IMG/VR virus record: IMGVR_UViG_3300027608_001872
Coordinates: 1-20,077 of that record
Length of the DNA stretch: 20,077 bases
Direction: 5' to 3' (one strand)
Source of the DNA: a virus
In this document: one piece after another, positions 2,371-19,496 of the stretch
Layout: each line of letters begins with the position of its first letter
Numbering within the stretch: the first letter of the stretch is position 1
The notes under the pieces: generated by a model
Told to the model about the DNA's origin: nothing
What the model saw: only the letters and a program-made list of their open reading frames with translations
The model's database searches: none
Position numbers and translations under genes: made by a program

Positions 2371-3093
2371 ATGAGAGACTGTCTATTAGACTTGGTACAA
2401 CACACATATGATCTTGGTTGCATTGACCTGATCAAGATTGTAGGCGATGAGAACACTACGCAAATTGAGGGCTTGGCAGAAGATTTGAGCGTGATCGTCA
2501 AAGGCGAATATAAAAATCCCGTGCCAGACTTTGTTGGTACATTTGGTATGCCCAACTTGAGCAAACTCAAAACCTTGCTTAACTTGCAAGAGTATAAAGA
2601 GGATGCCAAACTTACTATCACACGCAAAACACCCACAGAGCCGGATGGCATTGACTTTGTGAACAAAACAGGCGACTTTAAAAACAACTATCGATTCATG
2701 ACATCGGGTGTTGTTAGTGAGAAATTGAAAACTGCTAGAATGAAATCTGTGCCTTGGCACATTGAGTTTGAGCCTGCAGTTGCCAGCATCATGCGACTGA
2801 AAATGCAAATGAGTGCCAACGCAGAAGAGCCAAACTTTCAAGTCAAAACTGATGGCACAGACTTGAAGTTTTACTTTGGTGATCACTCTACACACGCCGG
2901 CAACTTTGTGTTTCAATCAGACATCACAGGTCAATTGAAACGTGCTTGGAGTTATCCAGCCAAACAGTTTGCCAGCATCATGGACTTGGTTGGTGACAAA
3001 ACAATTCGCATCAGCGATGATGGCGTTGCACAAATCACAGTAGACTCCGGTGTTGCTGTTTACAACTATCTCTTACCGGCACAAAGCAAGTAA
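2371..3093 (+). CDS. 45: Sliding clamp (T4 gp45-like)
   Basis: DNA polymerase processivity clamp, expected to form a trimeric ring holding gp43 on DNA and, in T4, to activate late transcription. 240 residues, close to T4 gp45 (228). The pattern of alternating short strands matches the clamp family, including FGMPNLSKLKTLLNL (residues about 58-72), the counterpart of the gp45 segment around YDLNGFLGILSLV, and the terminal strand VAVYNYLLPA. The start is fixed by a strong AGGAG. The clamp-loader genes 44/62 that follow gp45 in T4 are absent here. Instead the TAA stop shares one base with the start of the DpdA-like gene (TAATG), implying translational coupling of clamp and base-exchange enzyme. 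Confidence 0.85.
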   Translation: MRDCLLDLVQHTYDLGCIDLIKIVGDENTTQIEGLAEDLSVIVKGEYKNPVPDFVGTFGMPNLSKLKTLLNLQEYKEDAKLTITRKTPTEPDGIDFVNKTGDFKNNYRFMTSGVVSEKLKTARMKSVPWHIEFEPAVASIMRLKMQMSANAEEPNFQVKTDGTDLKFYFGDHSTHAGNFVFQSDITGQLKRAWSYPAKQFASIMDLVGDKTIRISDDGVAQITVDSGVAVYNYLLPAQSK

Positions 3094-4676
3094 TGACCGA
3101 GCCTGTAGTTCAAGACAACTTAACTGCCAAGCAGAATGACTATGCTGTGTTCCTTCCGGCAATCTCGGGCTTCTACGCCACGTTTGTGGGCAAGCAACGT
3201 GATCCCGTAAATGGACCATATGTAGATCCTGCTAGATTGCCACAGGGACTAACTGACATGGAACAAATGAACTGGCTCAACAGTTCTAAAGGCTTGTTCC
3301 CTTACAAATGGTCGCTGTATTCTGGTGGTCATGCCAACTTGGACTTGACCAAGACGGACTGGTCGGAGGACATGGTTCGTAATCGTGATCCCAACACTAT
3401 CATGCTAGGAGACTCGGGTGGATTCCAGATTGCCAAAGGCTTGTGGGAAGGCGACTGGAAAGCCAACTCAGGTTGTGCCAAAGCACAAAAGAAACGTGAG
3501 TCTGTGCTTACTTGGTTGGACACTATCAGCAACTATGGTATGGGGCTGGATATTCCCACCTGGGTTATCCACGATAAGAAAGCTAGTGATGCGTGTCAAA
3601 TCAAAACACTAGACGAAGCAGTTGCGGCCACCAAGTTCAACAATGAATACTTTATCAAACACCGTAAGGGCAAAGATCAAGGTGGCGCACGTTTCTTAAA
3701 TGTGCTACAAGGCGATAACCATACATCAGCAGAAGAATGGTATCAGCAAATGAAACACTTCTGCGACCCTGCTGTGTACCCAGATCGACATTTTGATGGG
3801 TGGGGCATGGGTGGACAAAACATGTGCGATGTACACTTGATCCTCAAACGTTTAGTGACATTGCGCTACGACAATCTACTACAAGAGGGCAAACATGATT
3901 GGATGCACTTCTTGGGAACCTCCAAGTTGGAGTGGGCCGTTTTATTAACTGTAATTCAGAGAGCTGTAAGAAAATATGTCAACCCGCAATTCACTATCTC
4001 GTTTGACTGCGCCAGTCCGTTCCTTGCAACAGCCAACGGACAGGTGTATTTTGAAAATGTCTTCGAGCACAACCAAAAGTGGTCGTATCGCATGGCTCCT
4101 TCAGCCGACGACAAAAAATATGCCACAGACACACGCAAGTGGAGTGACGGAGTAGTAGCCGACGGGGTGTATCCGCGTTGGGAAGATAGTCCACTAAGCA
4201 ACTTGTTCAAGATGAAAGACATCTGCATCTACAAACCAGGGGACCTAAACAAGATTGGCAAAGAAGGCAAAACATCCTGGGATAGTTTTAGCTATGCTTT
4301 GCTCATGGGACATAATGTTTGGATGCACTTGACCGCGGTACAGGAAGCCAATCGACGATTTGATGCAGGATCACGTCCTGCTATGATGCAATATAGCAAA
4401 GGTGATTATGACAAGTTTGAGGACATTATTGATCGCATCTTTTCAGCTTCAACTAAAGAAAACAGCCTAGCCGAAATTGAAAAGTACGGTGGCGATACTG
4501 GATACTGGACTGAAATTATAGGCGGCCGTGGATTCAAAGGAAAGAAAGCGGTGAATGCCCGAACACAGTTCAACGCATTATTCTCGTTTGATGAACCAGA
4601 AGTTGACACCAAATCCGATGATAGTGTACAATTAGATACCTCAGCGTTAGATCAATTGGAACAGGAACAGCAATGA
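3093..4676 (+). CDS. dpdA: DpdA-like DNA 7-deazaguanine transglycosylase (TGT family)
   Basis: Member of the tRNA-guanine transglycosylase superfamily, 527 residues. Visible family signatures: LGDSGGFQ at residues 105-112 (D107 matches the TGT substrate-binding aspartate), LNVLQGDN at 202-209, GWGMGGQN at 236-243, HFLGTS at 272-277, and SFDCASPF at 303-310, where D305 is the likely nucleophile matching the TGT motif that holds the catalytic aspartate. The Cys/His zinc cluster of bacterial TGT is not obvious. In phages such paralogues (DpdA) swap guanine in DNA for a 7-deazaguanine. That role fits this window, which also has folE, queD and queE. The region after about residue 310 is extra relative to tRNA TGT and may bind DNA. 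The last ~30 residues are acidic and Gln-rich. A tRNA substrate cannot be excluded. Confidence 0.8.
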   Translation: MTEPVVQDNLTAKQNDYAVFLPAISGFYATFVGKQRDPVNGPYVDPARLPQGLTDMEQMNWLNSSKGLFPYKWSLYSGGHANLDLTKTDWSEDMVRNRDPNTIMLGDSGGFQIAKGLWEGDWKANSGCAKAQKKRESVLTWLDTISNYGMGLDIPTWVIHDKKASDACQIKTLDEAVAATKFNNEYFIKHRKGKDQGGARFLNVLQGDNHTSAEEWYQQMKHFCDPAVYPDRHFDGWGMGGQNMCDVHLILKRLVTLRYDNLLQEGKHDWMHFLGTSKLEWAVLLTVIQRAVRKYVNPQFTISFDCASPFLATANGQVYFENVFEHNQKWSYRMAPSADDKKYATDTRKWSDGVVADGVYPRWEDSPLSNLFKMKDICIYKPGDLNKIGKEGKTSWDSFSYALLMGHNVWMHLTAVQEANRRFDAGSRPAMMQYSKGDYDKFEDIIDRIFSASTKENSLAEIEKYGGDTGYWTEIIGGRGFKGKKAVNARTQFNALFSFDEPEVDTKSDDSVQLDTSALDQLEQEQQ

Positions 4677-5182
4677 ATAGACAAGGTCACAACAACGTCA
4701 AGTTCTTTACTGGAACAGAAGTAGAACACACTCCTGCATTCGGCAAGAAAACATTGTTTGTAGTAGGATTACAATCCGCAACAGATATACAAGATCAACT
4801 GGCTGACTGTGAGCACATTTACTTTGGTGCTAACATGAGCTTTCCGTCTAGCATACGCACCAACGATAGTGTGTTTTGGACACCTTGGGAAAACATGATT
4901 CAACAATGTTTGGATCAAGGATATCAATGTACATTGGACATTGATGTTTCGCAAGTGGAAGGTCTGTTAGAATCTGGCCTGTGTGAGCACAATAATTTTA
5001 TTCCCATGATCTCTGTCAAGATACCTTACATACGACAACTAGGGTACAATGCCACTGTCAAAATAGATGACAAGGACTTTGCGGCAACCAATCCTGGTGT
5101 ATGGTGTCATAGTCTGCACACATTACAAAAACGTTCGGTGTTTACAGATTGGTCTAAATATACAAAGGATACTGTACTATGA
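4673..5182 (+). CDS. Protein of unknown function between dpdA and a MutH-like nuclease
   Basis: 169 residues, not recognised. It starts in an ATGA overlap with the DpdA-like gene and ends in an ATGA overlap with the nuclease gene, so all three are probably translated together. The composition suggests a soluble alpha/beta protein: a strand KTLFVVGL (residues about 26-33), IYFGANMSF, a helix around WENMIQQCLDQ, strand CTLDIDVS, and strands IPMISVKIPYI and NATVKI. There is no signal peptide or membrane segment. Five cysteines are scattered with no clear metal motif. Its position suggests a partner or accessory subunit of the base-exchange enzyme, but nothing in the sequence proves this. Confidence 0.75.
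   Translation: MNRQGHNNVKFFTGTEVEHTPAFGKKTLFVVGLQSATDIQDQLADCEHIYFGANMSFPSSIRTNDSVFWTPWENMIQQCLDQGYQCTLDIDVSQVEGLLESGLCEHNNFIPMISVKIPYIRQLGYNATVKIDDKDFAATNPGVWCHSLHTLQKRSVFTDWSKYTKDTVL
5153..5160 (+). promoter_or_regulatory. TCTAAATA octamer, possible late promoter
   Basis: The octamer seen before the clamp (2330-2337) and before folE (12121-12128) also occurs here, 18 bases before the nuclease start at 5179. It is one base off the T4 late consensus TATAAATA. It lies inside the preceding coding sequence, so chance occurrence is possible. Confidence 0.25.
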
Positions 5183-5741: not shown

Positions 5742-6920
5742 ATGAGTGATACACAATACTGGAACAATGATGCATTTTGTCCATTGCCGTGGGGCAGTAT
5801 CTATGTAGAAACCGACGGCAGGGTAGACAGTTGTTGTATTGCTCATAACAATCTTGGTAATTTACACGAGACCAAACTACAAAATATTGTGGACGGTAGC
5901 AAGAATATTCAAATCAAGCAAGAGATGTTGGCAGGCCAACGTGCTCAAGGCTGTAAGGTTTGTTATGCACCCGGAAACAACGTTGATGAAGGTCGCAAGT
6001 ATCACCGAGACAATCAACTGGTTGAGTTTGATACATGGCAACCAGACAAAGCATTTTTTGATCGGCCTGAAAACTTTAAACTACAGTATGCTGACTTGAG
6101 ATTCAGAAATACCTGTAACTATGGATGCGTGTACTGCGGCCCTGATCTAAGTTCAACCTGGGCTAGTGAGCTAAAACAGTTTGTTAAGATTGACGAAAGC
6201 GCCATTGCCGATGTCACACAATACTTTGTGGACAATGCTGTAGACTTGCGCAAGATTTACATGGCCGGAGGCGAACCACTGTTGATCAAAGAGAACCAAG
6301 TGATCCTGGAAAAGCTGTTGGAGATCAATCCGCACTGCCATCTTGTTGTGAATACCAATCTCAGCATGATCCGTGGTAACAGAATCTTTGAGCTACTGAC
6401 CAAGTTTCCCAACGTGGATTGGTTGATCAGTGCTGAGGACATGGGCGACAGATACAACTACATTCGCTATCCTGGTGATTGGACAGTGTTTGCTGAAAAC
6501 TTAAACATACTCAAAGCCGCAATCCCCGCCACACACAAGGTCAAATTTAACATGGTGTTCTCTGCACTCAATGCCAAGACCATATGGGACTATGTTGATT
6601 TCTTATTTGACAATGGTCATGCACGTGATTATGATCACTTGAATCTTGCCTATATCAACAATGGACATCAGTTTATCTGGTGTGATGCCAGGGCATTACC
6701 TGCATCCTACATTGCAGAGGTCAAAGAAATCATTGCTCAAAGATCACCAACAGGCACTAGATTCGACCAGGAACTACAGTTTGTACTGGATTGTTTGGAT
6801 GTGCCTGTGTCAGACAACGGCTATCATAATCTGTTTGATCGATTGGCAGAACTTGATCAACGCAGACATCTGGACAGTCACACAGTGTTTTCGGACATAT
6901 ACACCCATAGACAAACATGA
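5742..6920 (+). CDS. Radical SAM protein with N-terminal twitch/SPASM-like cysteine region
   Basis: 392 residues. The radical SAM core has the canonical CxxxCxxC cluster C125, C129, C132 (CNYGCVYC) for the 4Fe-4S cluster, and AGGEP at 175-179 for SAM binding. Before it, CPLPWGSIYVETDGRVDSCC (C13, C31, C32) and GCKVC (C71, C74) form an N-terminal auxiliary-cluster region like the SPASM/twitch segment normally found at the C-terminus, a layout known for phage and environmental twitch-type radical SAM proteins. The substrate is unknown; relatives act on peptides, nucleotides and other small molecules. It follows the nuclease by five bases with no strong ribosome binding site. Context hints at base modification, but peptide modification is equally open. 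Confidence 0.82.
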   Translation: MSDTQYWNNDAFCPLPWGSIYVETDGRVDSCCIAHNNLGNLHETKLQNIVDGSKNIQIKQEMLAGQRAQGCKVCYAPGNNVDEGRKYHRDNQLVEFDTWQPDKAFFDRPENFKLQYADLRFRNTCNYGCVYCGPDLSSTWASELKQFVKIDESAIADVTQYFVDNAVDLRKIYMAGGEPLLIKENQVILEKLLEINPHCHLVVNTNLSMIRGNRIFELLTKFPNVDWLISAEDMGDRYNYIRYPGDWTVFAENLNILKAAIPATHKVKFNMVFSALNAKTIWDYVDFLFDNGHARDYDHLNLAYINNGHQFIWCDARALPASYIAEVKEIIAQRSPTGTRFDQELQFVLDCLDVPVSDNGYHNLFDRLAELDQRRHLDSHTVFSDIYTHRQT

Positions 6921-6963: not shown

Positions 6964-7386
6964 ATGAATCAAGAGCAACGAGAAAAAATTGACAGAATTA
7001 AACAATATGCAGATAGAAAAATCTGGGTCACCTTCCGCAAAGAAGGCATCCACAAGTACCCTGCTGCCGCTAGTGATCCTGCTCTGGCAACCGGTGATGA
7101 ATACGATGTTAGTTTTCTTGGCGTGCCTCATCGTCATATATTCCATTTTCGAGTCTGGATCGACGTATTACACAATGATCGAGATATCGAATTCATTCAG
7201 TTCAAGCGATGGCTCGAGAATCTCTACCGCGATGGAGCACTCCAACTCGACTACAAATCTTGCGAAATGATGTCAGATGACCTGTACATTCAAATTGCAA
7301 ATCGATATCCAGACAGAGCTGTCTGGATTGAGGTCTCCGAAGATGGTGAAAACGGAGCTCTTATTAAGTATGAAATCAATAACTAA
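6964..7386 (+). CDS. Conserved small protein, candidate T-fold (QueD/QueF-like) protein
   Basis: 140 residues; no annotation comes directly to mind, but the pattern is that of the tunnelling-fold (T-fold) family. HRHIFHFRVWIDV (residues 56-68) resembles the zinc-binding HGHSF-plus-strand segment of QueD. DIEFIQFKRWLENLY (74-88) resembles both the DF..LK helix of QueD and the ELKSLKLYL helix of QueF. SCEMMSDDLYIQI (99-111) parallels CESLADMLYKYV in the QueD encoded at 13474. WIEVSEDGENGA (121-132) parallels the terminal strand with the V.ET motif. No cysteine lies where QueD or QueF carries its nucleophile, so it may be non-catalytic or do a different reaction. It has its own promoter. Fold call is inference. 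Confidence 0.6.
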   Translation: MNQEQREKIDRIKQYADRKIWVTFRKEGIHKYPAAASDPALATGDEYDVSFLGVPHRHIFHFRVWIDVLHNDRDIEFIQFKRWLENLYRDGALQLDYKSCEMMSDDLYIQIANRYPDRAVWIEVSEDGENGALIKYEINN

Positions 7387-7391
7387 ATTCT

Positions 7392-8864
7392 ATGACTGCA
7401 CAAATATCAAATCTGAGCGACCTTGTTAACAGCAATGCTCGATTTTTTCAAGCATCAATAGATGATGATGGTAATGGTCCCTTTATATACAGACACCATC
7501 ATTTAGAAAAAGGAATCACTAAGTGGATTAACATATATCGTTCGTTGAACCTGCAAAAAACCAATCCCTCCATTGGTTTGTTGCACGAACTTAATTTTGA
7601 ATACATTTGTATGTTGTATGCCGCTATAGGAATTGGTGCCAATTTTGTAGTGTTAGAGTCTAAGTTTGATGATAGCTCATCGCACAAAGATTTTATGCCA
7701 TTGGATATATTAGTGTATGATGACACGTTGGATAATATGTGTGATGACATGAGCTACTGGAATAATAATTCACAACATCGAATTGACTCTAGGCTGCTAC
7801 CAAAAATCAAAAGTTCAGACGAAAATACAAACACCAACGATATATCATCAATAGATCTTAATTTTGATTGGTCTAAAACACAAATGTTGTCGTCGGCTAC
7901 ATCAGGTAGCACCGGAGTGTCAAAAAAAATCACACACAACTATCAGTATATTTTAGATATATCTCAACGAAATGCTGAAGTTTTAAATTTTAATGGTCGT
8001 GTCGTTCATATTAAAAATTTGTATCATGGTAGTACCATGCCTGTTTTTTATTTGCCGGCGCTGTTAAAATCAGATTTTCATTTTTGCGCTCCGTGGATTG
8101 ATTCATCAAATCTTGAAGAAATTGAAAAATACATCAAAAATCAACTCTCGTGGACTGAATATCTTGACATAAATCATATTTTGTTTCCTTATACTTTTAT
8201 GATGGATAACTTCTTAAATTCAGTAGTTAAATTCAACATGAGTTTTACGGATCTTACTGTTTATACATTGTCTTATATTAAACCTCAGTACAAAAATTTA
8301 ATCAAAGGTCGCAACATTAAAATTGTAAGTATTTTTGGTTGTACTGAGACTAGCGGACCAGTAATGATAAATTCATTAACAGACAGCAATGCCGAAGAGT
8401 TTGATCCAACAATTTTTTACACACTAGACGATTATTTTACATTGACTTTGCTGCCAGATGGCACACGGGTACAAACAAAAAACGGATGGATTGATCATGT
8501 CATGGACGATAAGTTTAAAAAAATCGATCATAATTGTTATCAACATCTAGGAAAATCAAATCAGTATCGAATCAATGATGTAAAAATTGATTTAGCAAAA
8601 ATTTCTAACATAAGCAAGTTGATTGGGTTTGATGGTGACATCATAGTGGATGAACCACAACAATCATTGTATCTTGTGTTATGGAACAACGATGATCTAC
8701 AACATTTACAGGATGTTGTTAACCAGCAATTGAATTTGATGTTTGGCAGTGAGTTAGTACATATTTCTAAAGCAGCCAATTTAAACAAACTTGAGTTTAT
8801 TTCAGGTATTAAAATTAATCAAGATATGATACGAAAATATTTTCGAAACACCGAGGAACACTAA
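7392..8864 (+). CDS. ANL-superfamily adenylate-forming enzyme (acyl-CoA synthetase/adenylation domain-like)
   Basis: 490 residues, the usual ANL length. The phosphate-binding A3 loop is TSGSTGVSKK (170-179, usual TSGSTGxPK). FGCTETSGP (315-323) matches the A5 motif (YGxTE). LGKSNQYRINDVKIDL (386-401) matches the hinge A8 region (GRxDxxIKxxGxRIEL). ISGIKIN near the C-terminus is where the catalytic A10 lysine normally sits, slightly altered. Such enzymes activate a carboxylate with ATP and transfer it to CoA, a carrier protein or an amine. No carrier protein is seen nearby. The gene is far more AT-rich than its neighbours (a hand-counted 60-base sample at 8161 is about 22% GC, against about 47% at 3961), suggesting recent acquisition. 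It has no clear ribosome binding site, and its stop overlaps the next start (TAATG). Substrate unknown. Confidence 0.82.
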   Translation: MTAQISNLSDLVNSNARFFQASIDDDGNGPFIYRHHHLEKGITKWINIYRSLNLQKTNPSIGLLHELNFEYICMLYAAIGIGANFVVLESKFDDSSSHKDFMPLDILVYDDTLDNMCDDMSYWNNNSQHRIDSRLLPKIKSSDENTNTNDISSIDLNFDWSKTQMLSSATSGSTGVSKKITHNYQYILDISQRNAEVLNFNGRVVHIKNLYHGSTMPVFYLPALLKSDFHFCAPWIDSSNLEEIEKYIKNQLSWTEYLDINHILFPYTFMMDNFLNSVVKFNMSFTDLTVYTLSYIKPQYKNLIKGRNIKIVSIFGCTETSGPVMINSLTDSNAEEFDPTIFYTLDDYFTLTLLPDGTRVQTKNGWIDHVMDDKFKKIDHNCYQHLGKSNQYRINDVKIDLAKISNISKLIGFDGDIIVDEPQQSLYLVLWNNDDLQHLQDVVNQQLNLMFGSELVHISKAANLNKLEFISGIKINQDMIRKYFRNTEEH

Positions 8865-9155: not shown

Positions 9156-9383
9156 ATGGCCAAGCCACAATTCAAATCCAATCCTCGCGTTCGTGAGATC
9201 TTTGAAGATCTTGAGAAACTCTACGAATTCTGCCAGGACTATGGCTACCGCTATAACGAAGCGGACTTATATAACTTTAAAAGTTATGCATTCCAACAGT
9301 TCAACAAATACATGTTGGGCAAGAATGCCAAGAACATGTGGTGGGAAGATGCTCGACGCTTTGCTGGATATCGTCCAGCATGA
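9156..9383 (+). CDS. Conserved small phage protein
   Basis: 75 residues, soluble, rich in aromatic residues (Phe, Tyr, Trp), no known domain. I recall similar short proteins with a core like NPRVREIFEDLE...FCQDYGY in aquatic T4-like phages; function unknown. The start at 9156 is chosen over an in-frame ATG at 9075 because AAGGA at 9144-9148 lies seven bases upstream, and because the upstream start would overlap the membrane protein gene by 47 bases. The stop overlaps the next start (ATGA at 9380). Confidence 0.75.
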   Translation: MAKPQFKSNPRVREIFEDLEKLYEFCQDYGYRYNEADLYNFKSYAFQQFNKYMLGKNAKNMWWEDARRFAGYRPA

Positions 9384-10582
9384 GAAAGCTGTTTTACATG
9401 GGCTTAGAGAGCTATGAAGCCCGATACACATTACAGCTCACAGAATGGAACCGGCGAGTGTTTGACCGCAGAGGTCTTGACGTTGTGTATGTTCCTGGAA
9501 CCACTATTGACAATAGCCAAGCTATTTCAGTAGGACAGGTGCTAGACGCACATGGACGCAGTTATTTTAGTATGAGCCAAATGATGAACTTGGTTCAAAT
9601 GATGAAGAATGGAGAGGTTACTAGTGCGGATGTTATCTACTTTGAAGACATGTTTCAACCCGGTATTGAAAGTTTACCCTACATCCTTAATCAGGTTCCT
9701 GCTGATCAACGTCCTCGCGTGTATGTGCGCTGTCTTGCTCAGTCCATTGATCCTGATGACTTCGTACACGTATGGGGTATGGCAAAATGGATGGGACTCT
9801 ACGAACAGATGGTTAATGAGTTCGTGGATGGAGTTCTCGCAACGAACGAAGAGATGGTTGCTCATATGCGCATTGCTGGATGGCGTGCTCCTATATACAA
9901 TATTAGTGGCCTAGCATTTGGCAAGGAAGAAGTACTAGGGCGCATCGGCGGTGCAGAAAACATTCGTCCGTTTGATCAGCGTCCACGTCGTGTGGGATTT
10001 GCCGCACGTTTTGATCAAGAGAAGCAGCCAGGTTTCTTCATGGACTTGATTGAGATGTATGGGCAGTTGACCAACCAACCATGTGAGTTTGCTATCTTCC
10101 AAGGTGGTCCGTTGCGTAGCAACAATCCAGAGTTTATTACTCGTGCTAGACAAATGGAAGCACAAGGCAAGCTCAAGATCTATGAGAACCTCAGCAAGAA
10201 CGATTACTATGCGTTATTAAACGACACCAGAGTGCTGTTCAACTGTGCCTTGCAAGATTGGGTAAGTAATACAGTATCCGAAGCAGATACATTGGGTGCA
10301 AATGTTGTGTATCCTGCATATCGCAGTTTCCCAGAGACTTTTGCCAACGACCCAGAACGCTTGTATGTGCCTTGGTCAATTGATGATGCTTATCACAAAA
10401 TGCAAAACATGTTGCACAAGCCACATCACAACATGGGACTTATCTCGGACTGGAACAACGGCACTATTGACCGTGTGATTGATATCATGCAAGGTCAAGG
10501 CGAGCAGTGGAATCGTGCAGGCAATCGCTATCGTGATCATGTTGCGCATGAAAAATATCAAGTTGTAAAGATTGAAACATGA
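9380..10582 (+). CDS. Glycosyltransferase, GT-B fold (GT4-like)
   Basis: 400 residues from ATG 9380, chosen because it forms an ATGA junction with the previous stop; an ATG at 9338 would add 14 residues read out of frame over the upstream gene. RVGFAARFDQEKQPGFFMDL (204-223) is the typical start of the second Rossmann domain in GT-B enzymes. Toward the C-terminus, WVSNTVSEADTLGANVVYP contains the glutamate-bearing sugar-nucleotide site (SEAD). The N-terminal half is more divergent. It is followed by GalE- and DegT-like genes, suggesting sugar decoration of DNA, virion or host surface. The acceptor is unknown. Confidence 0.8.
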   Translation: MRKLFYMGLESYEARYTLQLTEWNRRVFDRRGLDVVYVPGTTIDNSQAISVGQVLDAHGRSYFSMSQMMNLVQMMKNGEVTSADVIYFEDMFQPGIESLPYILNQVPADQRPRVYVRCLAQSIDPDDFVHVWGMAKWMGLYEQMVNEFVDGVLATNEEMVAHMRIAGWRAPIYNISGLAFGKEEVLGRIGGAENIRPFDQRPRRVGFAARFDQEKQPGFFMDLIEMYGQLTNQPCEFAIFQGGPLRSNNPEFITRARQMEAQGKLKIYENLSKNDYYALLNDTRVLFNCALQDWVSNTVSEADTLGANVVYPAYRSFPETFANDPERLYVPWSIDDAYHKMQNMLHKPHHNMGLISDWNNGTIDRVIDIMQGQGEQWNRAGNRYRDHVAHEKYQVVKIET

Positions 10583-12176: not shown

Positions 12177-12989
12177 TTGACAAAAGACTTTATCCCGCAT
12201 CCCGTTATCCATTCGGATTCAAAAAACACATTCGTACCTGACAAACATCAGTCCCCAATTGAAAAAGCCAGCAAGGACATGAGCGACAAGGGCTACGAAG
12301 AAGGGTATCTAGCAGATGCCATTCGTACCAAGATGAAACGTGATAACAAACGTTTTTGGGCAGGCGACAACATTAGTGATTATGTGTCAGAAGAGATGAA
12401 ACATACCCTTATAGATGAAGCAACTGAAGCGTTTGAACTGGTGCTTGACCGCTTGCTAATTGATCGAGAAACAGATCCAAACTCGCATGGCACAGCAAGA
12501 CGACTTGCTAAAATGTACTTCAATGAAATTATGGAGGGTAGATATGAACCAGGACCTGACGCCACAGCGTTTCCAAATGATTCGGCGGATCGTTATGAGG
12601 GTATGCTTGTTGTACGTAGTGAGTTGCGCTCTATGTGTAGCCATCATCACCAACCTGTGGCTGGCGTTGCTTATATTGGCATTATTGCTGCCAATACACT
12701 TATTGGTCTTAGTAAGTATACCCGAATTGCTCAATGGTGCGCCAGACGAGGAACTCTCCAGGAGGAACTTTGTAACGACATTGCCCGTGAGATTAGTAAA
12801 GCTACTGACTCCGAAAACGTAGCAGTGTACATTCAGGCCACACATGGTTGCTGTGAGAATCGCGGCATCATGGCACACTCTAGTCTCACACAGACCACAG
12901 TACTCAAAGGTGCATTTAAGACTGATCCGTCGGTGAAGAAAGAGTTTTTTGACAACATTAAATTACAACAGGAGTTTGCCCCAAGATGA
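12177..12989 (+). CDS. folE: GTP cyclohydrolase I
   Basis: Converts GTP to 7,8-dihydroneopterin triphosphate, the first step to 7-deazaguanines and pterins. 270 residues with a TTG start. The catalytic domain occupies about 70-265. SMCSHHH (152-158) gives zinc ligands C154 and H157, and ATHGCCENRG (221-230) gives H223 and C225 with R229. IGLSKYTRIAQW (176-187) is the family signature. The first ~65 residues are an extra N-terminal tail. The glutamate next to the zinc cysteine in many FolE proteins is serine here (S155). It is the first gene behind a strong promoter. Given queD and queE downstream, its product most likely feeds DNA base modification rather than folate. Confidence 0.95.
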   Translation: MTKDFIPHPVIHSDSKNTFVPDKHQSPIEKASKDMSDKGYEEGYLADAIRTKMKRDNKRFWAGDNISDYVSEEMKHTLIDEATEAFELVLDRLLIDRETDPNSHGTARRLAKMYFNEIMEGRYEPGPDATAFPNDSADRYEGMLVVRSELRSMCSHHHQPVAGVAYIGIIAANTLIGLSKYTRIAQWCARRGTLQEELCNDIAREISKATDSENVAVYIQATHGCCENRGIMAHSSLTQTTVLKGAFKTDPSVKKEFFDNIKLQQEFAPR

Positions 12990-13473: not shown

Positions 13474-14028
13474 ATGGCACTATCATCAACTCAGGATCTA
13501 ATTAAACACATGGAACAAAATCTTCCATATCGCGGACCTGTTCAATACAAGTTTACCAGTACCAAAGAGTACATTGACGCATTTCCTTGTGCTTATCGCC
13601 AATGGAGGGCTGACAGTCATTGTAACTTGAATCATGGTTACAGTTTCTCAATGAAGTTTTACTTTGGTACAAACGACCTTGATGTTCGCAACTGGGCCGC
13701 TGACTATGGCGGATTGAAAGAACTCAAGAAAATTTTAGAAGATCAATTTGATCACACAACCCTGGTCAGTGCAGATGATCCTGAATTAGAGTTCTACAAA
13801 GAAATGGAACGTCGTAAACTGGCTAAACTTACAATCTTGCCCAGAGTAGGATGTGAATCACTTGCTGACATGCTGTACAAGTATGTGAACGGTGTTTACA
13901 TTCCAGACTTTTGGGGCGAGGGTGAAGCACAACGCCTGTGGTGCTACCGAGTGGAAGTACGTGAAACACAAGCAAACATGGCGTTTAGAGAAGGCCATAG
14001 AGAATGGAATGAGGATTTATTTGAATGA
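13474..14028 (+). CDS. queD: QueD-like 6-carboxytetrahydropterin synthase (PTPS family)
   Basis: Expected to turn dihydroneopterin triphosphate into 6-carboxytetrahydropterin, the second step to 7-deazaguanine. 184 residues, longer than E. coli QueD (about 120). HCNLNHGYSF (49-58) matches KCGRLHGHSF: the nucleophile C50 and zinc ligand H54 are kept, but the second HGH histidine is Y56, and the upstream AAH histidine appears as Y41 in CAYRQW. FDHTTL (92-97) supplies the D93/H94 pair. CESLADML (127-134) and VEVRET (160-165, with E164) are the substrate-binding elements. A 50-residue stretch around 98-125 is inserted. It overlaps the glycosyltransferase gene by four bases. Confidence 0.85.
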   Translation: MALSSTQDLIKHMEQNLPYRGPVQYKFTSTKEYIDAFPCAYRQWRADSHCNLNHGYSFSMKFYFGTNDLDVRNWAADYGGLKELKKILEDQFDHTTLVSADDPELEFYKEMERRKLAKLTILPRVGCESLADMLYKYVNGVYIPDFWGEGEAQRLWCYRVEVRETQANMAFREGHREWNEDLFE

Positions 14029-14912: not shown

Positions 14913-15681
14913 AGAACGTATTAAACGCTACTGGAACACACAACCGTGTAATATTAAACATGGACAAAGTGATCTTGGCACACCCGAGTTTTTTCGTGAA
15001 GTAAGCGAGCGACGCTATCGTGTAGAGCCGCACATTGCTGAATTTGCAGGGTTTCACTTGTGGGCTGGCAAACGTGTGTTGGAAATCGGTTGCGGCATTG
15101 GATCAGATGCAGAAGAATTTGCCAAGCATGGTGCTGAGTATGTGGGTATCGACTTGAGCGATCAAAGTATTGCATTAAGCAAGCAACGATTCGAAACACT
15201 AGGCCTTGAAGGCGAGTTCTACAATGTAGATGCAACTGATGGAGTAGCACTTGCCAAACTAGGTGAGTTTGATCTTGTTTACAGTTACGGTGTGATACAT
15301 CACTTCCCGGGCATTGACAAGATTATTGCCAATGTACATGAAGTGGTCAAATATGGTGGTGAATTCCGATTTATGGTGTATGCCAAAAACTCCTGGAAGT
15401 ATGCTATGATCCAAAAGGGTCTAGACCAATTTGAAGCACAAGCAGGTTGTCCATACGCACAGGCATTCAGCAAAGATGAAATTCACCAATTGATGAACAG
15501 AGACAATGGATGGTACATTGAGAGGTTGCGTCAGGACCACTGTTTCATGTATAATGTAGATTCGTACAAGGCAGGGCGTTATGAATTGGAACCGTGGTTT
15601 GAAGCCATGACAGAATCGCATCGTCAAGCTGTTAAAGAATATTTGGGTTGGCATCTACTAGTTAAAGCAAGAAAATTATGA
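14893..15681 (+). CDS. SAM-dependent methyltransferase, class I
   Basis: 262 residues from ATG 14893, which overlaps the glycosyltransferase end by 20 bases; GGAAG lies 12 bases upstream. Earlier in-frame ATGs read through the neighbouring gene. VLEIGCGIGSDAEEFA (62-77) is motif I, YVGIDLSDQSI (83-93) motif II, and FDLVYSYGVIHHF the motif IV/V region, as in small-molecule methyltransferases of the UbiE/glycan type. The N-terminal WNTQPCNIKHG and REVSERRYRVEPHI are shared by many environmental methyltransferases near glycan genes. The substrate is unknown. It may methylate a sugar or the modified base. Stop overlaps queE start (ATGA). Confidence 0.85.
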   Translation: MQQLSLEERIKRYWNTQPCNIKHGQSDLGTPEFFREVSERRYRVEPHIAEFAGFHLWAGKRVLEIGCGIGSDAEEFAKHGAEYVGIDLSDQSIALSKQRFETLGLEGEFYNVDATDGVALAKLGEFDLVYSYGVIHHFPGIDKIIANVHEVVKYGGEFRFMVYAKNSWKYAMIQKGLDQFEAQAGCPYAQAFSKDEIHQLMNRDNGWYIERLRQDHCFMYNVDSYKAGRYELEPWFEAMTESHRQAVKEYLGWHLLVKARKL

Positions 15682-16523
15682 AATTTAAAGTATCAGAACT
15701 ATTTTATTCAGCACAAGGTGAAGGTCGCTATGTTGGTGTGCCCAGCGTGTTTCTTCGTATGTTTGGGTGTAACTTCACCTGTTCAGGGTTTGGTTGCAAG
15801 CCAGGCGAGTCTAGCAAAGAAGCAGATGAAGTTGCCAAGAGTGTGCATCTCTACAAGACATTTGAAGAACTGCCACTGGTGAGCACTGGCTGTGACAGCT
15901 ATGCGTCATGGCATCCTGCATTCAAAGAACTCAGTCCTACCTACACAGAAGATGAGCTGGTGGAAAAGATGGCAGCATTGTTGCCGCATGGAAACTGGCA
16001 ACAGCCCAATGGTAATCCTGTACACTTGGTTATCACAGGTGGCGAGCCCTTGCTGGGTTGGCAACGTGCATATCCTGCATTGTTGGATAAACTACACGAG
16101 CGTGGCTTACGACACATCACATTTGAGACCAATGGTACTCAAGAATTATCAAGAGACTTCAAACTGTATTTGAATAACTGGCACGGTGAGATCACATTCA
16201 GTGTAAGTCCCAAGCTCAGTGTGTCAGGCGAGAAGTGGGAAGAGGCAATCAAGCCAGAGATTATTTTTGATCTTGAAACATATGGTATAACTTATCTCAA
16301 GTTTGTGGTTGAGAAGGTGCAAGACTTTGACGAATTGGATCGTGCTGTTGATGAGTACAGGCTTGCACAGTTTTCAGGTCCTGTGTTTGTAATGCCCGTG
16401 GGTGGTGTTGTCAGTGTGTACGATGGCAATCGTATCAACGTTGCTGACGAAGCACTCAAACGTGGCTACTGGTATAGCCCAAGATTACACGTTGATCTTT
16501 GGGGCAATGGCTGGGGTAAGTAA
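15678..16523 (+). CDS. queE: QueE, 7-carboxy-7-deazaguanine synthase (radical SAM)
   Basis: Rearranges 6-carboxytetrahydropterin to 7-carboxy-7-deazaguanine. 281 residues. YSAQGEGRYVGVPSVFLRMFGC (10-31) is the QueE N-terminal signature. The cluster cysteines are probably C31 and C35 (GCNFTC) and, after a ~37-residue insertion, C72 (TGCDSY); C40 is an alternative third ligand. ITGGEPLLGW (about 115-124) is the SAM-binding motif, FETNGTQ binds substrate, and SPKLS is also typical. The unusual split cluster resembles other QueE proteins with an enlarged cluster loop. It lies last in the folE operon, directly followed by the SGNH gene (stop TAA, then ATG). Confidence 0.92.
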   Translation: MKFKVSELFYSAQGEGRYVGVPSVFLRMFGCNFTCSGFGCKPGESSKEADEVAKSVHLYKTFEELPLVSTGCDSYASWHPAFKELSPTYTEDELVEKMAALLPHGNWQQPNGNPVHLVITGGEPLLGWQRAYPALLDKLHERGLRHITFETNGTQELSRDFKLYLNNWHGEITFSVSPKLSVSGEKWEEAIKPEIIFDLETYGITYLKFVVEKVQDFDELDRAVDEYRLAQFSGPVFVMPVGGVVSVYDGNRINVADEALKRGYWYSPRLHVDLWGNGWGK

Positions 16524-17258
16524 ATGTTTGACTGCATCTTGATCAATGGTGACAGCTATTCTGAAAAAAATAGACATAAGGTCTACTCAGATTTTTTGCA
16601 CAAGAAATCCAGATTGCCGGTGATTAATATTGCCAAGAGCGGCAGCAATAACGATCGTATTTGTAGAAGCACAATAGAAACATTAGCAGAGCTTAAACAA
16701 CAGTATACTAATCCATTAGTTATTGTTGGTTGGAGTTTTGTAAGACGGTTAGAAGTTTGGTATTACGGTGATAACCAACAAGTGATTAGTCGTATTCCAG
16801 ACCGAGAGCGTAAATTAGAACATTGCAAACCTTGTCTAGTAACTCTAGATGTACTGACAGGGTTAAATCAAGCTACTATAGAACAAAAGTGTTTGATTAC
16901 TGAAGATTTGTTTGTACACAAACAATTAACGGATTTCTATACATCATTGTATATGTTTGCTCATACCGTTGAGTCACTAGGTGCAACATTATTTTGTTTT
17001 TCGGCAGCAAAGAACACAGAAATTCCAGTACACTCTTTTCCATATATAGAATCATTGCACCAGGTGCAATGGTGTCAACAACAAAGTAATTTGTATCAAC
17101 TGCATGATTTTTATATTAAACAGTGGGCTGAACAACATGATCCATTGAGAAGATTAGAGACAGGACATTTAAGCGAATCTGGACATGCACAGTTTGCAGA
17201 TGTACTAACACAATGGCTTGATAACCTTGGATATAACATCAGAAAAGAATATGATTAA
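16524..17258 (+). CDS. SGNH/GDSL hydrolase-like protein 1
   Basis: 244 residues. LINGDSYS (6-13) is the block I GDS motif with S11 as probable nucleophile. AKSGSNNDRICRSTIETL (37-54) matches block II (G and N). GHLSESGHAQFADVL (214-228) is the block V helix with H221. VIVGWSF in the middle matches a core strand. It is one of three related proteins in the next 3 kb and the most AT-rich of them (about 33% GC in a 60-base sample at 16921). SGNH-like proteins of this type recur in aquatic T4-like phages. A role as esterase or de-acylase on surface glycans is inferred; the substrate is unknown. Start abuts the queE stop. Confidence 0.7.
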   Translation: MFDCILINGDSYSEKNRHKVYSDFLHKKSRLPVINIAKSGSNNDRICRSTIETLAELKQQYTNPLVIVGWSFVRRLEVWYYGDNQQVISRIPDRERKLEHCKPCLVTLDVLTGLNQATIEQKCLITEDLFVHKQLTDFYTSLYMFAHTVESLGATLFCFSAAKNTEIPVHSFPYIESLHQVQWCQQQSNLYQLHDFYIKQWAEQHDPLRRLETGHLSESGHAQFADVLTQWLDNLGYNIRKEYD

Positions 17259-17655: not shown

Positions 17656-18125
17656 TTTTTAATCACATCAAAGAACTAAAAGCACAAGGTAAAAAGATTG
17701 GCATTACATTTTCAACCTTTGACATGTTGCATGCCGGCCATGTTGCTATGTTATCAGAGGCAAAGAATCATTGTGATTATCTAATTTGCGGATTGCAAAC
17801 TGATCCCACAATTGACAGACCCGATACTAAAAATCATCCTATTCAAAGCATAGTAGAACGACAAATTCAACTTAGTGCTTGCCGTTATGTGGATGAAGTT
17901 GTTGTATATCAAACTGAACAAGACTTGATTGACCTGTTGCTTATTTTACCACTGGATGTTCGAATTCTGGGCACAGAATATGAGGACCAAAACTTTACTG
18001 GACGCAACGAAGGTGCTGGTCGTGGTGTACAGGTAATATTTAACAAGCGTGATCATTCGTTTAGTTCCAGCAGTTTGCGCAAGCGAGTTGCTGAAGCAGA
18101 AACAATTAAAAGTATTAAAAAATGA
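17652..18125 (+). CDS. Cytidylyltransferase-like nucleotidyltransferase (TagD/GCT type)
   Basis: 157 residues. ITFSTFDMLHAGHVAML (18-34) holds the HxGH motif (H27, H30) of the nucleotidyltransferase superfamily. FSSSSLRKRV near the C-terminus corresponds to the ISSTxIR motif. The intervening VERQIQLSACRYVDEVVV is typical of glycerol-3-phosphate or ethanolamine-phosphate cytidylyltransferases. Expected to make a CDP-activated small alcohol or sugar from CTP. It lies between SGNH-like genes, fitting a role in cell-surface or glycan chemistry. The substrate cannot be fixed from sequence. ATGA overlaps on both sides. Confidence 0.85.
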   Translation: MIFNHIKELKAQGKKIGITFSTFDMLHAGHVAMLSEAKNHCDYLICGLQTDPTIDRPDTKNHPIQSIVERQIQLSACRYVDEVVVYQTEQDLIDLLLILPLDVRILGTEYEDQNFTGRNEGAGRGVQVIFNKRDHSFSSSSLRKRVAEAETIKSIKK

Positions 18126-18790
18126 ACATACTGTTTAACGGTGACTCCAACATGAATGGTGAGGAGTTGCAAGACCGCAGCCGTAGTATGATTGGTGAAC
18201 TATCAAGGCACTTAGGCGGCACAGGCACAAACTTGTCTGTAAGTGGTGCCAGCAATGACTTGATCTACAATTCAACACTTGAGTACCTCAAAGATAATCA
18301 GCCAGATCTGGTAGTGATTGGCTGGACCGAACATGGTCGTGAGCAGTGGTACTTTGAAGGTGCATTTCACGAAATCAATCAGTTGGATGTGGGACAACGT
18401 ATCCCTGAAGAGTTTCGCCGTCGCTATCAGTTCTGGAAGAATCACATTCAGAAAGAAGGCGAGTGGCATCGTGTGATGGGCTACTATTGGCACAATAAGA
18501 TTTACAACTTGCACTTGATTCTCAAAGAGCGTGGCATTCCGCACTTGTTCTTTAATGCGTTTAATGCGTTCCAAGTTGCCAACTCAGCTGAACAACTGGA
18601 TTGGAACGATTGCTTTTTCCATCCTTACCAGCAAAATCTTTGCTACATCAACTACTGTGTGGAACACGAGTTTGAAGAAATTACACCCGGCTGGCAACAC
18701 TACAATGAAGATGCGCATGCGGCATGGGCACAGACCTTGGTTGATTACATGAAACAACGTCAAGTCTATGATTCTGTATGTAAACGGTGA
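18122..18790 (+). CDS. SGNH/GDSL hydrolase-like protein 2
   Basis: 222 residues. ILFNGDSNMNG (3-13) gives block I with S9. LSVSGASNDLIYNST is block II, VVIGWTEHGREQWY the central strand with an aromatic-rich loop, and NEDAHAAWAQTLVDYM the C-terminal histidine helix. The same order of elements occurs in the genes at 16524 and 18768, so these are diverged paralogues. A 9-base tandem duplication at 18551-18568 encodes the repeated FNAFNA. It overlaps the cytidylyltransferase by four bases and the next gene by 23 bases. Function unknown; hydrolase by motif. Confidence 0.72.
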   Translation: MNILFNGDSNMNGEELQDRSRSMIGELSRHLGGTGTNLSVSGASNDLIYNSTLEYLKDNQPDLVVIGWTEHGREQWYFEGAFHEINQLDVGQRIPEEFRRRYQFWKNHIQKEGEWHRVMGYYWHNKIYNLHLILKERGIPHLFFNAFNAFQVANSAEQLDWNDCFFHPYQQNLCYINYCVEHEFEEITPGWQHYNEDAHAAWAQTLVDYMKQRQVYDSVCKR

Positions 18791-19496
18791 TAGTCATGCT
18801 GCCGCAGCCGAGGCAGTAAATCCTCACAGCTGGGCACAGGATGATGGGTTGTTCTATGGCCTAGGCCGTATGCCACATCCTGACAATGAACGTGCAAGTT
18901 TTGGATGCGAGCTTGCTAACTGGCTACGTGCTATCCTATACCTAGATGCACAGTCTGGATGTTCGAACACACGCATCATGCGTACCACAAGAGAATGGAT
19001 CAAGGCCAACCCAGATGCAGTCAACAATTGCTTTATGGTTATCCAATGGACCACCTGGGAACGAGAAGAGTGGTGGCATGAAGATCACGACTTTCAAGTG
19101 AATGCATCGGGGATTGACGATGTTCCAGAAGCACTACAACAACGCTACAAACAATTTGTCATTGATATAGATTGGGAAGAATGCAGGCAACGTGCCCATA
19201 AAGAAATTTGGGAATTTCATCAAGAACTGGAAGCACAGGAAATTCGGCACGTTATGTTCAATGGCAACAGTCATTTTGATGGCATCACAGACCAAAAAGC
19301 GTGGGGGTCTAGCTACATGCATCCATATGCCGACGATATGACTTACAATTCGGTGCTGAGAAGCAATGGATTCAAAACGGTTAACCCCAATAGTTGGCAT
19401 TTTGGGCCAGATGCCCATTGCTATTGGGCGGAATATGTGTTACAATACATTAAACGCAACCAACTATTGAGTCCAAATGAAATACCTACTTATTGA
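18768..19496 (+). CDS. SGNH/GDSL hydrolase-like protein 3
   Basis: 242 residues. LYVNGDSHAAAAEA (3-16) is block I with S9. AQSGCSNTRIMRTTREWI is block II, MVIQWTTWEREEWW corresponds to GWTEHGREQWY in the upstream paralogue, and HFGPDAHCYWAEYVLQYI is the terminal histidine helix. Unusually rich in Trp and His. The start lies 23 bases inside the previous gene, and the end overlaps the exonuclease gene by 20 bases, so it is translated in tight coupling with both. Substrate unknown. Confidence 0.72.
   Translation: MILYVNGDSHAAAAEAVNPHSWAQDDGLFYGLGRMPHPDNERASFGCELANWLRAILYLDAQSGCSNTRIMRTTREWIKANPDAVNNCFMVIQWTTWEREEWWHEDHDFQVNASGIDDVPEALQQRYKQFVIDIDWEECRQRAHKEIWEFHQELEAQEIRHVMFNGNSHFDGITDQKAWGSSYMHPYADDMTYNSVLRSNGFKTVNPNSWHFGPDAHCYWAEYVLQYIKRNQLLSPNEIPTY

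Follow-up and report, generated by a model that had tools for sequence, protein, structure and literature searches.

A QueD-like T-fold protein family as an apparent substitute for QueC in phages making 7-carboxy-7-deazaguanine

Introduction

How does a phage that makes 7-carboxy-7-deazaguanine (CDG) and lacks QueC, the enzyme converting CDG to preQ0, finish its modified base? 7-Deazaguanines protect phage DNA, and the question is raised by a viral sequence of 20,077 nucleotides (IMG/VR record IMGVR_UViG_3300027608_001872, positions 1 to 20,077; hereafter, the window). The modification is unsettled in phages making CDG without QueC (Hutinet et al. 2019, PMC6884629). An original prediction, made from the window alone, described the 140-aa product of the gene at 6964 to 7386 as a cryptic T-fold protein and a possible undescribed member of the deazaguanine pathway, acting either as a noncatalytic partner or binding protein or as an enzyme with new chemistry. 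Here, we describe its family, a QueD-like subfamily that seems to replace QueC.

Results

The window encodes, all on the plus strand, GTP cyclohydrolase I (FolE, 12177 to 12989; PF01227, 1e-38), 6-carboxytetrahydropterin synthase (QueD, 13474 to 14028; PF01242, 1.7e-14; phrog_2389), and 7-carboxy-7-deazaguanine synthase (QueE, 15678 to 16523; phrog_2076, 1.1e-53, with the NCBIfam QueE models below their cutoff), and no QueC was seen in it. A 527-aa DpdA-like guanine transglycosylase (3093 to 4676, plus strand) had no sequence-level match and carries the motifs DSGGFQ and FDCASP. The best Foldseek matches of its AlphaFold2 model (pLDDT 87) were all TGT (E 6e-8, prob 1.00) with modest TM-scores of about 0.4/0.5, and DSGGFQ is kept and D305 is invariant within FDCASP. 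Because of this TGT-like predicted fold, the product is very likely DpdA.

Several other features of the window were recorded. The zinc site of its QueD looks noncanonical, with FPCAYRQW...HGY in place of the canonical AHR and HGH, and the Cys, the Asp-His pair, and the Glu are still present. A strongly conserved 169-aa protein (4673 to 5182), unmatched in Pfam, PHROG, and NCBIfam, is encoded close to the T-fold gene, at a median of 316 bp upstream, in 121 of 169 loci. The genes flanking the T-fold gene, a radical SAM/SPASM gene (5742 to 6920) and an AMP-binding-like gene (7392 to 8864), occur in 14 and 2 of the 169 related loci, respectively, and are variable cargo. Three consecutive proteins (16524 to 17258, 18122 to 18790, and 18768 to 19496) resemble one another in an NGDS motif at the start and are possible paralogues; the match of the first to DUF6071 is borderline.

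The gene at 6964 to 7386 (plus strand) belongs to phrog_17812 (E 2.8e-36), a phage family of unknown function that has no name in Pfam, NCBIfam, or PHROGs, and its conserved domain spans residues about 19 to 137. The product had no family match in Pfam or NCBIfam and no sequence match in the PDB; the PF01242 profile did not match it at E values up to 1, nor did the FolE profile PF01227. Three candidate relatives were rejected as chance: a copper amine oxidase match in Pfam (E 0.088), and the short, off-fold matches to 2hfq (phmmer E 0.019) and to bacterioferritin profiles. Relatives are encoded on at least 599 IMG/VR stretches, and a first search found 26 isolate-phage records, from phages of Pseudomonas, Acidovorax, Rhizobium, Sinorhizobium, Xanthomonas, Vibrio, Aeromonas, Synechococcus, Cellulophaga, and Chryseobacterium; a further isolate is Faecalibacterium phage Roos. 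Members include ASD50405.1 of phage ACP17 and AGO49045.1 of Cellulophaga phi13:1, and the gene is also carried by phage Paride, which grows on Pseudomonas aeruginosa PAO1. Viral scans with distant members as the query gave no matches. In the isolate phages, members are annotated throughout as hypothetical and at times bear a neighbor's name. The domain also forms the C terminus of longer proteins, namely, a 383-aa protein of Vibrio phage Bakedbeans (L087, 9212 to 10363) and a 293-aa protein of Chryseobacterium phage MA9V-3 (L092, 9431 to 10312), whose N-terminal parts match no family clearly. Two viral proteins in BFVD, A0A6J5LEZ6 (459 aa, annotated as an alcohol dehydrogenase) and A0A8S5V119 (300 aa, annotated as an AAA domain protein), carry it at 44% and 32% identity, respectively, and are apparent fusions.

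The fold was predicted by AlphaFold2 from an alignment of 60 diverse members, taken from the window and viral contigs, with identity down to 33%. The model (pLDDT 94.3, pTM 0.84) comprises strands at residues 19 to 30 and 56 to 67, helices at 77 to 89 and 100 to 114, and strands at 120 to 126 and 130 to 136; this order, beta-beta-alpha-alpha-beta-beta, is that of a T-fold unit, as predicted originally. Against the PDB, Foldseek placed Escherichia coli QueD (4ntk) at the top (E 2.6e-5, prob 1.00, TM 0.64/0.73), and the best 26 matches were all QueD/PTPS, so that the search pointed to no different family. Dihydroneopterin aldolase, FolE (E 0.03), and QueF-L (E about 0.08) came much lower. A resemblance of the helix region to QueF had also been proposed; QueF-L structures do appear among the matches, but this likeness is minor and well behind that to QueD/PTPS, and the protein has neither the catalytic Cys of QueF nor QueF as its nearest fold match.

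Comparison of family profiles agreed with the fold search. The T-fold family aligned with the phage QueD family by hhalign with a P value of 1.4e-5 and a score of 38.2, which none of 200 column-shuffled QueD profiles reached (maximum, 21.7), whereas the control profiles gave P values of 0.3 (FolE), 0.48 (DpdA), and 0.063 (an unrelated neighbor). The alignment pairs SCEMMSDDLY with GCESLADMLY and IEVSEDGENGA with VEVRETQANMA of phage QueD. The four motifs on which the original prediction rested, HRHIFHFRVWI, DIEFIQFKRWL, SCEMMSDDLY, and WIEVSEDGENG, do lie in that order, at residues 56 to 66, 74 to 84, 99 to 108, and 121 to 131, and correspond in the model to strand 2, helix 1, helix 2, and strands 3/4, so the proposed parallel with QueD holds. 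Thus, the likeness of the two families is above chance. A chance resemblance, with the gene being no more than an unrelated neighbor, has in its favor the lack of any sequence match in Pfam, NCBIfam, and the PDB, but the fold match, the profile match measured against shuffles, and the presence of folE and queE in all of the 29 family-positive records examined refute this explanation, to which we give practically no weight. Most likely, the protein is a QueD/PTPS paralogue of the zinc type in the phage deazaguanine DNA modification pathway.

In QueD, the zinc ligands are a His that ends strand 1 and an HxH that opens strand 2, and a Glu in strand 3 anchors the base; catalysis involves a Cys nucleophile four residues before the HxH and an Asp-His pair between the helices. 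Ten residues (H30, L52, H56, H58, F60, R73, E76, S99, E101, and E126) are invariant in 71 of 71 diverse members of the T-fold family, and H70 is kept in 70 of the 71. Of these ten, three are His, three are Glu, and one is Arg, as is typical of an enzyme. H30 (7051 to 7053) ends strand 1, and HRH (residues 56 to 58; 7129 to 7137) starts strand 2 and aligns with HGH of canonical QueD, although this profile alignment is weak (P 0.01). Because of these strand positions and the weak alignment, H30, H56, and H58 are likely a zinc triad equivalent to that of QueD. E126, within E126-D127-G128 (7339 to 7347), corresponds to the base-anchoring Glu and aligns in the profile alignment with the invariant E164 of phage QueD. 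In contrast, the catalytic residues of QueD are gone: L52 occupies the position of the Cys in all 71 members, bearing out the absence of a nucleophile noted originally, the Asp-His pair (D93-H94, invariant in phage QueD) is absent, and C100, in the SCE motif of helix 2, varies among members. H70-x-x-R73-x-x-E76 (7171 to 7191), between strand 2 and helix 1, is specific to the family, and its three residues are candidate catalytic or carboxylate-binding residues. Thus, the family has retained the binding apparatus of QueD, with the likely zinc His residues and the anchoring Glu, has lost the Cys and the Asp-His pair, and has acquired H70, R73, and E76 as new fixed residues just ahead of helix 1. 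From this conservation, we infer that the conserved residues serve in metal binding and catalysis.

Two other readings bear on these residues. The protein might be a spare or alternative synthase of CPH4, that is, a second QueD, since its fold and candidate zinc ligands are those of QueD; however, a true QueD is also present in 27 of 29 family-positive records, the Cys-Asp-His catalytic residues are absent, and phage Roos has the T-fold protein without FolE or QueE, so that we regard this as very improbable. Alternatively, a noncatalytic binding protein or DpdA subunit might hold CDG and pass it to DpdA, giving dCDG in DNA. The loss of the Cys, Asp, and His residues of QueD with retention of the anchoring Glu would fit such a carrier, as would the DpdA-like genes nearby (47 of 61 loci, at a median of 1.7 kb) and phage Roos, in which the T-fold member is accompanied by a TGT-like gene only. 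Nevertheless, even in members of only about 33% identity, a complete candidate metal site and the new conserved polar residues H70, R73, E76, E101, and D127 persist; this exceeds the needs of binding alone, which weakens the carrier reading and leaves it unlikely.

Co-occurrence was examined in 29 family-positive records (11 isolate phages and 18 long viral contigs) and in a contrast set of 12 phages, comprising the reference phage 9g and phages selected because they have QueE. The family-positive records have folE in 29 of 29, queE in 29 of 29, queD in 27 of 29, and full-length queC in none, whereas all 12 contrast phages have queC and none has the T-fold family. Campylobacter phage CP220 likewise has queC and no member, which brings the comparison phages with queuosine genes to 13 of 13 with queC and 0 of 13 with the family. 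Weak PF06508 matches in 6 of the 29 family-positive records, 3 of which pass the Pfam cutoff, were rejected as QueC, being partial PP-loop fragments; gp07 of phage 9g was also rejected, and the true Gat-QueC of this phage was found by profile. The T-fold family and QueC are thus mutually exclusive in this sample, the genomes of which are not independent of one another. The proposed membership in the deazaguanine pathway is supported by the co-occurrence with folE, queD, and queE and the exclusion of queC.

Three genomic contexts are informative. In three Amycolatopsis prophages (L217, 8799 to 12041; L218; L221), a cassette of DpdA, the T-fold protein, QueD, QueE, and FolE, in which no QueC was seen, represents a minimal system; in L217, it is bordered by a ParB-like gene and a terminase gene. 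The T-fold member has a 112-aa form in Amycolatopsis. A cellular origin of these copies is ruled out by the adjoining terminase, portal, and capsid genes. In phage Roos, which lacks queC, the T-fold member and the adjoining TGT-like gene with the motif DSGLF (L199, 8405 to 8740 and 8712 to 9620) also adjoin ParB-like genes; folE, queD, and queE were undetected by tblastn, and this member may depend on a precursor made by the host. In Mycobacterium phage Bipper, QueC was reported as the sole missing piece (Hutinet et al. 2019, PMC6884629), and we found neither queC nor, with the family profile, a detectable T-fold member. The slot of the T-fold gene between dpdA and queD is taken in Bipper by the unrelated-looking 141-aa gene gp4 (L225, 2047 to 2472), the product of which could match in strand-helix order and is possibly a very distant member or an analogue.

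The closest conserved neighbor of the T-fold gene in most phages is a GT4-like glycosyltransferase gene, found in the window at 9380 to 10582 on the plus strand (the frame opens at 9338, and the probable start is 9380) with a weak match to PF00534. Its family shares the motif EP-ETRYT-EW, also seen in L082 (12372 to 13463), L084 (8996 to 10024), and L090 (10349 to 11515). A homologue adjoins the T-fold gene on the same strand in 52 of 61 loci with wide flanks (median, 283 bp), and the L082 version was found in 14 of 30 records that carry the T-fold family and in none of 14 contrast phages, whether QueC positive or other, which suggests a sugar on the modified base. By this evidence, the T-fold enzyme might act on CDG other than as a decarboxylase, adding a handle for the neighboring glycosyltransferase and so giving a sugar-bearing 7-deazaguanine in DNA. 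Against this, the small T-fold has no cofactor motif, and the glycosyltransferase is absent near the gene in phages of Cellulophaga, Rhizobium, Vibrio, Aeromonas, and Chryseobacterium, in Roos, and in the Amycolatopsis prophages; the handle reading is thus a minor possibility. Because of these absences, we place the glycosyltransferase outside the core function, and it may decorate the base further or act separately.

Discussion

The T-fold protein probably finishes the modified base by a route other than that of QueC. Our preferred reading, to which we give a slightly better than even chance, is that it is a metal-dependent enzyme that replaces QueC in acting on CDG and most likely converts CDG to 7-deazaguanine by decarboxylation. 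CDG would be made by FolE, QueD, and QueE, and, with QueC missing, the T-fold protein would take the place of QueC. E126 would bind the guanine-like face of CDG, H30, H56, and H58 would hold the metal, and R73 and H70 would position and protonate the 7-carboxylated carbon with the release of CO2. DpdA would then exchange the resulting 7-deazaguanine into DNA. The core of the protein, of about 115 residues, has no nucleotide-binding motif and therefore suits a reaction free of ATP and NADPH that needs only a metal and acid/base groups; the simplest reaction of this kind is the removal of the carboxylate of CDG to give 7-deazaguanine. It is on these grounds that we infer metal binding, CDG as the substrate, and decarboxylation.

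Some observations speak against the preferred reading. Plain 7-deazaguanine would not explain the adjoining glycosyltransferase in most phages; Roos has no detectable folE, queD, or queE; and Bipper lacks queC and yet has no member. A bolder view, which we hold to be rather improbable, is that this unnamed zinc T-fold enzyme replaces QueC by new CDG chemistry and, with DpdA and the glycosyltransferase, puts a sugar-bearing 7-deazaguanine into the DNA of many large phages.

The T-fold family widely marks phages that make CDG and lack QueC, including hundreds of contigs as well as isolates that infect Pseudomonas, Acidovorax, Rhizobium, Cellulophaga, Vibrio, and other hosts, and offers in a single small gene a handle on their final base. 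It would also show plainly how a T-fold enzyme can be adapted to act later in the pathway to which it already belongs.

Among known systems, QueD/PTPS (PF01242; 4ntk) is closest, sharing the T-fold, the candidate zinc His triad, the anchoring Glu, and the pathway; however, the T-fold family lacks the Cys nucleophile, the Asp-His pair, and a PF01242 match, has the new H70/R73/E76 set, and usually occurs with a co-encoded QueD. QueF/QueF-L and FolE likewise belong to the T-fold superfamily and the deazaguanine pathway but are far weaker fold matches, with no family match. QueC resembles the family in its place after QueE, and nearly every tested genome carries QueC or the family, Bipper being without a detectable copy of either, whereas QueC itself has an unrelated PP-loop ATPase fold, uses ATP and ammonia, and yields preQ0. 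TubF of tubercidin biosynthesis is proposed to take the carboxylate off a CDG-derived compound after ribosylation and, unlike the T-fold family, is a 422-aa UbiD-family protein with a proposed prFMN cofactor (PMC6112128). This precedent suggests that such a carboxylate is indeed removed in nature. The family occurs in phages ACP17 and Cellulophaga phiST. Both phages were reportedly studied in 2023 by Cui et al., who are said to have found 2'-deoxy-7-deazaguanine and the carboxy base in phages and to have predicted a phage CDG decarboxylase, named DpdL. Like the T-fold protein, DpdL would act on CDG in QueC-lacking phages, and the setting expected for it (CDG made, QueC lacking, and a transglycosylase) is the one found here, with folE and queE in 29/29 records, queD in 27/29, full-length queC in 0/29, and a DpdA-like gene in 47/61 loci and in the window. 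The T-fold family, a natural candidate, may be DpdL.
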